Positions 17,107 through 24,596 of a stretch of DNA of 37,472 nt are shown piece after piece (the stretch's first letter is position 1; every line of letters begins with the position of its first letter). Below the pieces are notes generated by a model. That model made no database searches. It was given only the letters and a program-made list of their open reading frames with translations, and was not told the origin of the DNA. The position numbers and the translations under genes were made by a program. Source of the DNA: an uncultured Marinicella sp. (GTDB lineage Bacteria; Pseudomonadota; Gammaproteobacteria; Xanthomonadales; Marinicellaceae); assembly GCA_947502595.1 (NCBI GenBank), contig CANNAM010000008.1:1-37472 (forward strand), written 5' to 3'.

Positions 17107-18720
17107 ATGAAAACAAAAATATTATTATTGCTTGCAGCATTGGCTTTGTTGATGACCTATTTTATTAATAAGGATCGTGTGGTGTTTAACAGGTTGTTGC
17201 CAGCGGATACAACATTGCCAGATAACAGCAAGTACTATGGCGAGTTGAAAGCAGGGGTATTTGAGGGTGAAGGGGAATTGGTGTGGGCGGATGGTGATCG
17301 GTATTTGGGTCACTTTAAGCAAGGGTTGATGCATGGCTCAGGGGAGTTATGGGAAGTGAATGGTGATTATTACAGTGGGTCATTTAAAAACGGCATGATG
17401 CATGGCCTCGGTCAGCTGACTTTTTATGATGGTTCGGTGTATCAGGGTGAATTCAAACGCAATCATATGACAGGCGCGGCCACTTTGCGTGAGGCCGATG
17501 GTACTGTTTTTGTGGGCAATTTCAAACAAGGTGTATTGGTCGAGGGCAGCTATACCGATGCAGACAATAACCGCTATGAAGGGACTTTTGAAAACTGGTT
17601 GTTGGCAGGTTTTGGTTCCTACACTTCAGCAGATGGTGATGTGTATAAAGGTGAATTTAAACAAGGGGTTTTGCATGGTCAAGGCCAAATCCAGTTAAGT
17701 AACGGCGCGCTCTATGTAGGTGAAGTTGCAGATTGGATGTATGAAGGCAAGGGCAAGCTGATTGATGAAGAAGGCAACCAATACCAAGGTGAGTTTGAAT
17801 TCAATGAGTTTCATGGCGAGGGCACCATGGTTTTGGCAAAACCAATAGATGGCATCACTGAAATTTCGGGCCAATGGCAATATGGCTTTCATGAAGATGA
17901 TCCCAAATTTAAAATGCTGTTCGGCCAGCAAGTAGCAACTGTTGATGAGCTGTTGTATAGCCAGAATTCATTGCTTTCTGAGTCGATGTCACAAGTGTCA
18001 AAATCGGACAAAGACTTCATTGATTTGTATTTTCTGGGCATGGCTGCACATGATCAGGACGTGTTTTACCAAGAAATTGAATACATTGAAAATTATTTTA
18101 ATGATCAGTTTGAGACAAAACATAAATCCATTACTTTAGTTAACAGCCCGATAAAAAGCTCGAAACTTCCTTTGGTCACTAACCATGCCATCCAGTATGT
18201 TTTGGATCAACTGGCTGAGGTCATGGATGTGAATCAAGATGTGCTGTTTTTATACCTAACCAGTCATGGAACAAAAGAACAAATATCGGTTTCATATGCT
18301 GGTTTAGAATTGGCACAAATAGACGCGAAACAGTTTGGAGCAGTGCTTAAAAACAGCCCAATTAAGTGGAAAGTAATCATGATTTCGGCTTGTTATTCTG
18401 GCAGCTTTATTCCTTATTTAAAAGATGATCACCATTTAGTCATGACTGCTGCCAGAGAAGATCGGGTTTCATTTGGTTGTGGTGAAGGCAGTGACATGAC
18501 GTATTTTGCTAAGGCAATGTTCAAAGAGGCCTTACCGCAACATGATTCATTCATTGCTGCCTTTACAGCAGCAGAACAAGTCATTGAACAATGGGAAAAT
18601 GAAGATTTTCCTGACAGCCAGCATTCAAAACCACAGATTTATATTGGCAGTAAAATTGCCACCCAGTTACAACAATGGCGACAACAGATGTTGAGCCAAA
18701 AACAACAGCAAATTAACTGA
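17107..18720 (+). CDS. MORN-repeat protein fused to a C13-family (legumain/caspase-like) cysteine peptidase
   Basis: A 537-residue protein with three parts. Residues 4-20 form a hydrophobic N-terminal anchor or uncleaved signal. About nine MORN repeats of some 23 residues run from 43 to 241 (such as YYGELKAGVFEGEGEL and YKGEFKQGVLHGQGQI). Residues about 295-515 form a peptidase C13 domain with the catalytic dyad H387 (LTSHG) and C429 (SACYSG), followed by the conserved TAAREDR block. The C13 family includes legumain and GPI transamidase, which cleave after Asn/Asp. MORN repeats usually contact membranes or proteins. An AGAGGA precedes the ATG. It overlaps the next gene by one base (TGATG), implying coupled translation. 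The protease substrate is unknown. Confidence 0.88.
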   Translation: MKTKILLLLAALALLMTYFINKDRVVFNRLLPADTTLPDNSKYYGELKAGVFEGEGELVWADGDRYLGHFKQGLMHGSGELWEVNGDYYSGSFKNGMMHGLGQLTFYDGSVYQGEFKRNHMTGAATLREADGTVFVGNFKQGVLVEGSYTDADNNRYEGTFENWLLAGFGSYTSADGDVYKGEFKQGVLHGQGQIQLSNGALYVGEVADWMYEGKGKLIDEEGNQYQGEFEFNEFHGEGTMVLAKPIDGITEISGQWQYGFHEDDPKFKMLFGQQVATVDELLYSQNSLLSESMSQVSKSDKDFIDLYFLGMAAHDQDVFYQEIEYIENYFNDQFETKHKSITLVNSPIKSSKLPLVTNHAIQYVLDQLAEVMDVNQDVLFLYLTSHGTKEQISVSYAGLELAQIDAKQFGAVLKNSPIKWKVIMISACYSGSFIPYLKDDHHLVMTAAREDRVSFGCGEGSDMTYFAKAMFKEALPQHDSFIAAFTAAEQVIEQWENEDFPDSQHSKPQIYIGSKIATQLQQWRQQMLSQKQQQIN

Positions 18721-21891: not shown

Positions 21892-23211
21892 TCAGAACTG
21901 ACCTTGGGCTTCAAAGCCGTGAGCAAATATCAGGTCTTGGCTGCGGCTGAATTCATCAGCACCAATATCCGCGTTGCCTCCAGAAGGTCTTAATTCACCA
22001 TCAAAATCAAATAAGGCAGCCAAAGGAGCAGATACTTGGTTGATGGCAGCAGAGGCAGTTTGTTTTAAGTGCAAATCAGCAGTTGCCGGGTTGCTGAACA
22101 TATTTAAACTGGCTGCTGTGAAATTGCCCAGTTGTGAATAGCTGGCACCATTTCTTGAGCCAATGTCAGCATCGGTGAGGTTGTTTTGAGCATCACTGCC
22201 GGCAGTATCAAAGCGAAACTCAATGGCCAAACGTTGGTTTTGATTGGTCAAGATTGAATTATGTAAAACCTGGGTTTGTGGTGAATCCCAAACGATGATC
22301 ATGCCATCAGAGTTGTTGCGGCGTGCAGTGCTGTATAAACCTGGTGTCATATATATCATGTTATTTCTGATGATGCCGCCGAAATGATCGGTTTCAGTGG
22401 ACCGGTTGGTCAGTCCGTAAGCAATGGCCCGGTCTACATCAATGAATGTGTTGTTTTCCGTCAGTGTGTTACTGGCGCCATTCCACATCAGTATGGCTGG
22501 GTTCCACAGGTGGTCAGAGTTATCAGGGGTGTGGAAATTTTTAAATAGATTGTGTCTAATTTGCCAGCCATCACCACCATGAATGTCGATGCCGTTGGTG
22601 TAACCAGATCCGCCGCCATGATCTGTTACTGGCGGTGCATTGGTATAAGCCATGAGGGTGTATTCAACCACACCGTTGTCAACACCTTCTGCAAAACCAC
22701 CAGAGCTGCCTTTAATAAACTGTTCCCCAGCATCCAATAGGCGTAAATTATAGAGGGTCGGAGCGTCTGCATTGGCATCGAATTGGATGGGGTGAAAATA
22801 AACATCACGAATGGTGAGGTTTTGCACCGTTAAATTTCCTGCATTACTCCAGATGCCGTGAGGCACATTGCCATAGTTGGCCTGTTCCATGCCTTTGCCG
22901 ATGAGGTTGATTTGATCACAACGGTCGCTGTTACCACGAATGGTGATGTTGTTGGTTTGTATGTATAAGGTTTGGCTCAAATGATAGTCACCGGGTGCCA
23001 GTAAAATTGTGCTGTTGTTTTGTAAATTGTCCATAGCTTGGTTTAACTGCTGTACATTCGCCACTTGAATAACATTGCCTGTGGGTTGGGGTAAGGCGGG
23101 TGCATTCAGGCAGCTGGTGGAATTTGCAGCATTTATATCGGTACTTAATACCATGATGAATAAGAAGCAGATCATGCTGGCATATATTGTTGTGTTCAAT
23201 TGTTTGGACAT
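21892..23211 (-). CDS. Secreted right-handed beta-helix protein with internal D-x-I-F tail
   Basis: Exported protein of about 439 aa, unrelated at close range to the 11-15 kb pair. After a signal peptide (ending INA near residue 29) it has the pectate-lyase-like entry (VIQVANVQQLNQAMDNL, ILLAPGDYHL, ITIRGNS) and a parallel beta-helix with many Asn residues. A choice-of-anchor Q-like end follows (DFDGELRPSGGNADIGADEF). The D-x-I-F motif (QDLIFAHGFE) is followed by five more residues, so here it is not quite terminal. The ATG at 23211 is chosen over a TTG at 23223. No lyase active site is obvious. Confidence 0.8.
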   Translation of the reverse strand: MSKQLNTTIYASMICFLFIMVLSTDINAANSTSCLNAPALPQPTGNVIQVANVQQLNQAMDNLQNNSTILLAPGDYHLSQTLYIQTNNITIRGNSDRCDQINLIGKGMEQANYGNVPHGIWSNAGNLTVQNLTIRDVYFHPIQFDANADAPTLYNLRLLDAGEQFIKGSSGGFAEGVDNGVVEYTLMAYTNAPPVTDHGGGSGYTNGIDIHGGDGWQIRHNLFKNFHTPDNSDHLWNPAILMWNGASNTLTENNTFIDVDRAIAYGLTNRSTETDHFGGIIRNNMIYMTPGLYSTARRNNSDGMIIVWDSPQTQVLHNSILTNQNQRLAIEFRFDTAGSDAQNNLTDADIGSRNGASYSQLGNFTAASLNMFSNPATADLHLKQTASAAINQVSAPLAALFDFDGELRPSGGNADIGADEFSRSQDLIFAHGFEAQGQF

Positions 23212-23236
23212 TTTGAATTTCAATGAATCAGTTAGG

Positions 23237-23251
23237 TACTGTAATACAGTA
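23237..23251. promoter_or_regulatory. 15-bp palindrome at the promoter of the beta-helix gene
   Basis: TACTGTAATACAGTA is a perfect palindrome around its central A, 26-40 bp upstream of the start at 23211, and overlaps a TATACT -10 candidate on the minus strand (23249-23254). CTG and CAG are too close for a LexA box. It may be an operator. Confidence 0.4.
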
Positions 23252-23402
23252 TAGGTCAGTGGCTCAACTTGGTGTGAGCTCAGTCACGGTTTTGGCCTGT
23301 GAATGAATTATCAATCGTTTAAAGTTAAATAATGTTCTTTCATACCGTGGTGGTAGAGGCTGGTATTGAAGCTCTAATTTATACTTATACTCACATAAAA
23401 GC

Positions 23403-23617
23403 GTTATCCACAACAACTGTGGATAACTTTGTGGGTAAGTCGTTTTTTTGACCTTAAAAAGGTAACTGTGGCGAAGCTTGATTCGTTTTGGTTAAAATTT
23501 AACCATTCGCGTTTAGTTGTTAATAATCAATAACTTATGGAGTAATTGATATGTTAACAATCAATTAATCAGAGTAAAGTCATGTTTTACGCAGTTCGCA
23601 AGGGGAAATGTGTATAA
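23403..23617. other. DnaA-box cluster with IHF site (origin-like or DARS-like module)
   Basis: This gene-free AT-rich region has TTATCCACA at 23404-23412, its exact inverse TGTGGATAA at 23418-23426, a one-mismatch box TGTGGGTAA at 23430-23438, and TGTGTATAA (inverse of TTATACACA, also consensus) at 23609-23617. Between them, 23525-23537 fits the IHF consensus WATCAANNNNTTR exactly. A 15-bp palindrome GGTTAAAATTTAACC lies at 23490-23504. Two facing boxes plus a third in direct orientation with an IHF site resemble DnaA-reactivating sequences. R1/R2-like boxes flanking an IHF site also resemble oriC. No dnaA, dnaN or mnmG gene is nearby. Confidence 0.6.
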
Positions 23618-23675
23618 AAGCTAAAAATCAAGTTTTTATTGCGCTAATTTTGCTTGGTTTTTTTGAGATACAGGG

Positions 23676-24596
23676 TTATTCGCTGTATGCTTCTGCAGTG
23701 GCATCGTGTGGATGCAATGATTCGTGGTGGGTTACGCGCAAATGAAATTGTTGAACACTGGGTTCTTTACTCAAAACTTGTTTGATTCTGCGTGCCGCGT
23801 CTTCACAAAACATCAAGTTTTGACCATTGCGCAATGCAAAGGCTTGCTCATCCGCTCGTTTCACTGCAGCTTGAACAGCTGTTTGTAAAGAGTTTTCCAC
23901 CAGATCAATCATTTTTTGTAACGGCACTTGAACTTGGGTGTTTGCCAGTTTAACTTTTATCACCGCAGAACTTCTCTGGCTGTGTGGTGTGGCATTGATG
24001 CCTTGTTCTGACCCAATCCAGTCAATCACTGCTTGGTAATCAAGGTTTTGTTGATCAAACTGTTGCTTGAAATTTTCCTGAATCAGTTGTCTGGCTAGCG
24101 CCGCTGAACAAGGGCAGGTGCTGGAATAGGTGACCTGAAAACTCAAGTATTGGCTCAATCCAGTTTTTTTGCACTGCACCACTGACAGTTTAATTGGGTA
24201 GGAACGCCAGCCGGAGTGGTCGCTGACCAAAGCGGGTCTGCGTAACAAGGCTTCGCCCTCCACTTCAATCAAAGCGTTTTGGCTTAATTTTTTATGTGAA
24301 CTTAAAAAGTTGCTGGTCAGCTTTTGTAATTGCTGGTAGTCAATGGCTGTGGCAGAAAAAATTTCATCACAGGCCAAATACAATCGTGACATATGAATGC
24401 CTTTGCTGACTTCATCATCCAATGAAACTTCGGCGCGAACCCTGGCAACGCCAGCCGGCACAGCAACATCAGCCGCTAAATTTAACGGCATCTCAATGTC
24501 GCTCATGCCAACCCATTGTAGTTGGCCGCCTATTTTGGCTTTTTCCTCAGCAGCGATGTCTGGTAAGGTACATGATTGGTTGGTTGAATCTAACAC
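23676..24596 (-). CDS. GTP cyclohydrolase FolE2 (type IB)
   Basis: Catalyses the first step of folate/pterin synthesis, GTP to 7,8-dihydroneopterin triphosphate, as the non-FolE type IB enzyme that works with metals other than zinc. It is 306 aa and full-length, with the N-terminal LPDIAAEEKAKIGG, GIHMSRLY (H68), the catalytic STCPCS block (C161 and C163) and TPHSQRS (H205). The start is a GTG at 24596 without a clear ribosome-binding site. An in-frame stop lies further upstream, and no better start exists. A 31-bp inverted repeat lies 22-52 bp upstream, so it may be repressed separately from the preceding methyltransferase gene. In many bacteria folE2 is induced on zinc starvation by Zur. 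Whether that holds here is inference. Confidence 0.95.
   Translation of the reverse strand: MLDSTNQSCTLPDIAAEEKAKIGGQLQWVGMSDIEMPLNLAADVAVPAGVARVRAEVSLDDEVSKGIHMSRLYLACDEIFSATAIDYQQLQKLTSNFLSSHKKLSQNALIEVEGEALLRRPALVSDHSGWRSYPIKLSVVQCKKTGLSQYLSFQVTYSSTCPCSAALARQLIQENFKQQFDQQNLDYQAVIDWIGSEQGINATPHSQRSSAVIKVKLANTQVQVPLQKMIDLVENSLQTAVQAAVKRADEQAFALRNGQNLMFCEDAARRIKQVLSKEPSVQQFHLRVTHHESLHPHDATAEAYSE

Follow-up and report, generated by a model that had tools for sequence, protein, structure and literature searches.

The DNA analysed here, referred to as the window, is a stretch of 37,472 nucleotides from the start of contig C8 of an uncultured Marinicella genome (G000), whose assembly comprises 3.24 Mb in 64 contigs. 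Comparison of its FolE2 protein groups it with Marinicella and other Lysobacterales, the best hit with a name being 89% in an uncultured Marinicella. An intergenic region between folE2 and an open reading frame (ORF) of 443 amino acids contains a group of putative binding sites for DnaA, Fis and IHF. The features are listed below, with distances (+) counted from the end of the three-box core.

21892..23223, minus strand: ORF of 443 aa, flanking the module at the box I end, without a Pfam family at E ≤ 0.001
23224..23675: intergenic region with the entire module, no ORF of at least 80 aa
23404-23617: putative DARS module, 214 bp; three-box core, then Fis, IHF and box IV sites
23404..23412, plus strand: DnaA box I, TTATCCACA, exact consensus
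23418..23426, minus strand: DnaA box II, TTATCCACA, 5 bp from box I and oriented towards it
23430..23438, minus strand: DnaA box III, TTACCCACA, with one mismatch, separated from box II by 3 bp
23490..23504, no strand: putative Fis site, the palindrome GGTTAAAATTTAACC, starting at +52 and fitting GnnYAnnnnnTRnnC
23525..23537, plus strand: putative IHF site, AATCAATAACTTA, exact match to WATCAAnnnnTTR, starting at +87
23609..23617, minus strand: DnaA box IV, TTATACACA, starting at +171
23676..24596, minus strand: folE2, GTP cyclohydrolase I type 2 (Pfam PF02649, 1.7e-68), with the module past its 3' end

The Fis consensus used is the one quoted in a passage of PMC8682772, and the palindrome that fits it could form a stem of 10 bp. 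A preliminary description of this DNA had reported DnaA boxes including a facing pair, a one-mismatch box, an IHF consensus and a palindrome in a gene-free, AT-rich setting. All of these were confirmed in place, and the AT content was 67% in the gene-free stretch compared with 57% in the window. The same description called the gene on the other side from folE2, the 443-aa ORF, a beta-helix gene.

Taken alone, the clustering of boxes in the window is unusual but not extreme, and only moderately improbable. The number of boxes was not enriched, with five matches to TTWTNCACA in the window versus 8.4 expected; three consensus boxes fell within 215 bp in 14 of 2000 first-order Markov sequences, and a facing pair with a spacer of 5 arose in one of 2000. 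It is because the exact spacing is kept in other genomes that the cluster stands far above chance.

The facing pair was sought with the pattern TTATNCACAN{1,12}TGTGNATAA, which allows spacers of 1-12, in the window's own genome and 60 relatives. It was present in 51 of these 61 genomes, reversed-pattern controls gave 0, and the spacer was exactly 5 at all but two places among the matches listed; 12 of the 18 genomes of the genus held two to three copies. With box III added (N3 TGTG), the core was found in 139 of 369 gammaproteobacterial genomes, representing 112 of 272 genera, again with 0 matches to reversed patterns. From the class, 130 loci were fetched, 30 automatically and 100 by hand from the places listed in the 369-genome search, and the spacer was 5 in all 134 elements that they contained, although 1-12 was allowed. 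Removal of three near-duplicates left a set of 131 elements from other orders of the class; this set was chosen for exact boxes I and II and TGTG in box III, and weaker cores fall outside its scope.

The core was found in 40 of 398 genomes of a phylum-wide sample: by hand count, the window's own genome, nine of nine same-order genomes, 11 of 127 others in the class and 19 of 261 outside it. Exact cores are rare in this sample outside the window's order. The spacer was 3 in five of the 19 core-bearing genomes outside the class, and neither Fis nor IHF sites were in place in the two outside-class elements looked at. One outside-class locus (L319, G721) carries an array of several TTATCCACA boxes in which the facing-pair spacer is 3, not 5. 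Some cores match the three-box pattern both ways, 7 bp apart with a box III on each side (G263:C62:64822/64829, G142:C16:2909/2916 and G669:C1:229670/229677). A passage of PMC10380432 describes DARS1- and DARS2-like sequences as conserved in many proteobacteria, and conservation of the core is therefore not claimed as new; DARS2 conservation is also reported, in passages of the literature, for Vibrio, Shewanella and species near E. coli.

The accessory sites were found at set distances beyond the core in other gammaproteobacteria. In the set of 131 elements the Fis consensus started at +52 in 45 and at +51 to +53 in 57, the background rate for each position of an element being 0.0009, and an exact Fis consensus was present at +50 to +53 in 59, compared with 0 in a control shifted by +200. 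The exact IHF consensus started at +86 or +87 in 25 elements (background 0.00002); with at most one mismatch allowed, an IHF site was present at +84 to +88 in 78 elements, compared with one in the shifted control. Box IV, in the orientation of boxes II and III, gave 94 exact matches at +160 to +179 versus three at +120 to +159 and three at +180 to +259. Of the 130 elements from outside the order of the window, 64 had all three accessory sites, each with no more than one mismatch; a further 33 had two of them, 16 had one and 17 had none. A mirrored control of 130 elements had three sites in one, one site in 13 and none in 116. In the window element all three are exact (+52, +87 and +171).

Nine of the 17 elements without any accessory site consist of the core only and come from a single family, in which they are spread over three genomes. 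This family, f52 (G346, G240 and G100; L238-L245), has three to four exact cores per genome; besides the nine, a tenth fetched element had one accessory site. The Fis and IHF sites lie ∼11 bp nearer the core in two elements (L162 and L178), and a third element has its IHF site at +75; a shortening of ∼11 bp is what one helical turn would give. Within the window's own order the accessory-site picture is mixed, with an exact Fis consensus at +52 in one of six elements (L333-L338) and an exact IHF consensus at +86/87 in three. No description of a layout with Fis at +52, IHF at +86 and box IV at +170 was found in the titles, abstract openings and passages of the open literature, and the fixed arrangement of these three sites appears to be new.

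A FolE2 match was obtained in 15 of the 18 genus genomes, that of the window included. The check proposed in the preliminary description, a search for the same cluster beside folE2 in relatives, located an element in 13 of these 15, at 186-254 bp beyond the point where the FolE2 match stops. Of the remaining two, one had no element within 1500 bp of FolE2 (L049) and the other none in the 260 bp of contig remaining past it (L050). Box I was TTATCCACA in 11 of the 13 folE2-linked elements and TTGTCCACA in two, these being the only forms accepted by the script; GGTTAA stood at +51/52 and an exact consensus box at +169 to +171 in all 13. Mean pairwise identity among the genus elements was 0.83 in box III and 0.74 in the IHF block; outside the sites it was 0.26 upstream, 0.33 over +1 to +48 and 0.39-0.49 in the later flanks. 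The identities of box I (0.97), box II (1.0) and the Fis block (0.81) arise partly by construction, as boxes I and II and the TGT of box III were required by the script, and GGTTAA served as the anchor of the Fis block.

Further copies form a second set, beside polA or elsewhere. The second full copy in the window genome (L186:4994-5028, equivalent to G000:C17:27493) lies between rho-ppx-glycosyltransferase and polA and has its IHF site at +86, box IV at +170 and one mismatch in the Fis site. A polA-like stretch likewise lies less than 1.5 kb from an element of a different family (L182, G143). The search of element loci, which took in five further loci linked to folE2, found the 443-aa ORF only at the window's own locus; UvrB, BioD, YbhK, RppH and MutH, the neighbours of DARS1 and DARS2 in E. 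coli, were sought near the element loci, most of which reach ∼700 bases per side, and were found at 0 loci each. Distances from dnaA, for 15 elements in 10 complete or near-complete chromosomes (three of them worked out by hand), ranged from 0.02 to 0.35 genome lengths, where 0.5 is farthest, and several elements were very near. In these chromosomes the elements do not, as a rule, share the mid-replichore position known from E. coli.

A passage of PMC5742627 describes DARS1 and DARS2 as each containing three boxes at a common spacing, with box I reversed relative to the other two. In MG1655, core spacings of 5 and 3 bp were read in both DARS1 (L072:1608-1642) and DARS2 (L071:1636-1670). The resemblance to a DARS core suggested beforehand is supported: the window element has the same order, orientation and 5/3 spacings, is intergenic and is kept in relatives, beside folE2 in the 13 genomes noted above. 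On a geometry score of 27, the window element and the second copy in its genome both reached 26, DARS1 25 and DARS2 24; the datA region scored 21, the E. coli oriC region and the dnaA region of the window genome 19 each, and the best site in the window away from the element 20.

A profile was built from the 130 elements outside the window's order and run on seven stretches, amounting to 131 kb counting both strands. It matched the window over 23393-23540 (E=1.5e-16), the second copy in the window genome (E=1e-12) and, over L072:1604-1745, DARS1 of E. coli (E=2.1e-9), where the core contributes much of the score. The scores of DARS2 (5.8 bits), datA (9.6 bits, E=0.03) and E. coli oriC (10.5 bits, E=0.016) are at chance level or little above. 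With the +1 to +110 flank alone DARS1 ranked 4 of 33,910 positions, overlapping E. coli stretches being counted twice; within the flank, the +72 to +105 part was matched by a fraction of 0.0002 of positions and the Fis part only by 0.014. The homology of the window element to E. coli DARS1 therefore extends beyond the core, with an alignment over nearly the whole profile as well as the common three-box core and its spacing.

DARS1 of K-12, which lies in the bioD-uvrB intergenic region and is the nearest relative known, has a degenerate IHF-like site at +87 (two mismatches) and a box IV-like site at +169 (one mismatch), in the same places as in the window module, but no Fis consensus at +52 (three mismatches). 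It is described in a passage of PMC5742627 as a 101-bp element with a regulatory flank of ∼50 bp, and is reported in part of the literature to work without IHF and Fis, unlike DARS2. An E. coli DARS1 query on 38 chosen genomes identified relatives in 18, of which 14 belong to one family, presumably Enterobacteriaceae, and are not independent. An IHF site at +86/87 was exact in five of the 18 and had at most one mismatch in 12, against a mean of 0.12 per 5-bp window; no Fis enrichment at +52 was seen among them. The sequence TGGGGATAA, one mismatch from a DnaA box, was present at +188 to +193 in 13 of the 18 (L345-L354 and L356-L358), approximately two helical turns beyond the position of box IV elsewhere. 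As far as these sequences can be read, the DARS1 of enteric bacteria looks like a form of this module that has lost its Fis site, is losing its IHF site and has box IV in a shifted position.

DARS2, in the rppH/ygdT-mutH region, shares with the window element the core geometry and has its IHF-like and Fis-like accessory sites, as there, beyond box III. On our own reading of its sequence, the core is followed by IHF at +59 and +75 (one mismatch each) and then by Fis at +111 (exact) and +159 (one mismatch), and it has a DnaA box at +177 in the opposite orientation, whereas box IV of the window lies at +171. The core-Fis-IHF order of the window is the reverse of the core-IHF-Fis order of DARS2, and the window element is in this respect not of the DARS2 type. 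Passages of PMC4245941 state that IHF and Fis are both required for DARS2 activity and that IBS1-2 consists of two IHF sites 3 bp apart. The DARS2 core was assigned by us to L071:1636-1670 because of IBS1-2-like sites 3 bp apart and the geometry score. The second IHF-like site of DARS2 (L071:1745-1757), at +75, has the place and orientation of the IHF site in L162 and L178, and a weaker three-box array of the same 5/3 geometry (22 of 27) lies on the mutH side of DARS2 at L071:1952-1986.

The dnaA gene of the window genome is on contig C2; three consensus boxes lie at or shortly beyond its 3' end, ahead of a 366-aa ORF that is dnaN-like by eye. A second DnaA-like ATPase of 237 aa was also found, which from its context we take to be Hda. 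IhfA scored above both NCBIfam cut-offs and IhfB above one of two; a Fis-like protein of 80 aa reached 71 bits, short of the 99 that NCBIfam sets for Fis.

A chromosomal or cryptic replication origin would also suit AT-rich DNA that carries DnaA boxes together with an IHF site, and an R1/IHF/R2 spacing reminiscent of oriC had been pointed out in the preliminary description. The oriC reading did not hold up, since dnaA lies on contig C2 with boxes of its own and the window has no lasting GC-skew switch. Over most of the window the skew is positive; it dips slightly below zero for short distances at 6-9 kb and 25-27 kb, and does not change sign lastingly at 23.4 kb. The element is neither next to dnaA nor, on the skew of the window, at a GC-skew minimum, the places looked to for oriC, and the facing pair recurs within single genomes of the genus. 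An origin was rejected on the place of dnaA and the skew, and its probability is close to nil; the R1/IHF/R2 likeness is better explained by a DARS module with its core, its IHF site and its box IV. A datA-like locus, at which DnaA is inactivated because an IHF-DnaA complex stimulates hydrolysis of the ATP that it carries, would likewise combine DnaA boxes with an IHF site, and the best E. coli datA stretch does have a box II/III-like pair 3 bp apart. Its facing box I, however, agrees at only 5/9 positions, against a perfect box I in the window, its exact IHF match is on the other side of the boxes, at -89, and the profile score given above hardly separates it from chance. The window element does not show the datA arrangement of boxes and IHF without a facing box I, and datA was rejected on box I and the side of the IHF site; we regard it as very unlikely.

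Passive titration, in which strong boxes soak up DnaA and leave its nucleotide unchanged, draws on the presence of four boxes in 214 bp and on a passage of PMC12371093 in which DARS1, DARS2 and datA of E. coli are named titration loci. It leaves unexplained the fixed orientation, the 5/3 spacing and the Fis and IHF distances that recur across families, and is a very unlikely account of the locus. The site might instead be a promoter of a flanking gene controlled by DnaA, IHF and Fis, or the palindrome, with its possible 10-bp stem, might act as an RNA stem-loop terminating folE2, and the position of the element past the folE2 3' end in the genus would fit. The gene on the box I side is, however, peculiar to the window locus among those searched, and other copies lie beside polA or elsewhere; a terminator would have no need of Fis, IHF and box IV at fixed distances, and box I is changed in two genus members without a matching change in box II. 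Gene regulation and termination were rejected mainly because the neighbours vary while the element stays, and are highly improbable.

The locus is instead likely to be a complete site of the DARS1 type, which recharges ADP-DnaA and is controlled by Fis and IHF. Counted in favour of a DARS1-type site are the geometry, the conservation, the placing of the accessory sites, the profile match and the presence of dnaA, Hda-like, fis-like, ihfA and ihfB genes. Counted against it are the Fis-like protein below cut-off, the Fis/IHF order reverse to that of DARS2 and the IHF-free K-12 DARS1, together with the 17 of 130 elements lacking accessory sites, the mixed picture in the same order and the rarity of the core in the phylum sample.

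In E. coli, according to passages of PMC8682772, PMC4245941 and PMC5742627, ADP-DnaA molecules on boxes I and II touch head to head and lose their ADP, and Fis and IHF switch DARS2 on. At the window locus ADP-DnaA molecules would similarly meet head to head on boxes I and II, with box III occupied alongside, and this contact would cause DnaA to release ADP; the freed DnaA could then reload with ATP and become able to fire oriC. With Fis at +52 and IHF at +87 the DNA would be kept sharply bent, and the folded arm would return DnaA on box IV (+171) to the core. Since IHF lies about midway between the core and box IV, its sharp bend would bring box IV back to the core, and a bend made by Fis and IHF would render the site switchable by both. 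We infer activity at the window locus and the role of box IV, while nucleotide exchange and the need of DARS2 for Fis and IHF are taken from E. coli work; the loop geometry is the new part of what we infer.

A broader proposal, which might equally prove right or wrong, is that DARS in Gammaproteobacteria had, as its ancestral form, and still has, as its main one, the 214-bp module (core, Fis at +52, IHF at +86/87, box IV at ∼+170), with an IHF-folded loop closing box IV onto the core, and that K-12 DARS1 is a decayed descendant whose independence of IHF and Fis is derived. The suggested loss of IHF, Fis and fourth-box parts from E. coli DARS1 would explain why it is the weaker, IHF-independent site of the two. 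How DnaA is recharged after each round of replication outside E. coli is poorly known, and a conserved, precisely spaced module offers a ready marker for gammaproteobacterial DARS sites. The module predicts Fis and IHF control at these loci, for which no such test was found in print; its predictions are testable by assays already established for DARS2.

Elsewhere in the window, beside a 122-aa ORF without an NCBIfam match, positions 17107-18720 encode a 537-aa protein with a weak match to a caspase-like domain (NF047832, 4.2e-7, far below cut-off).
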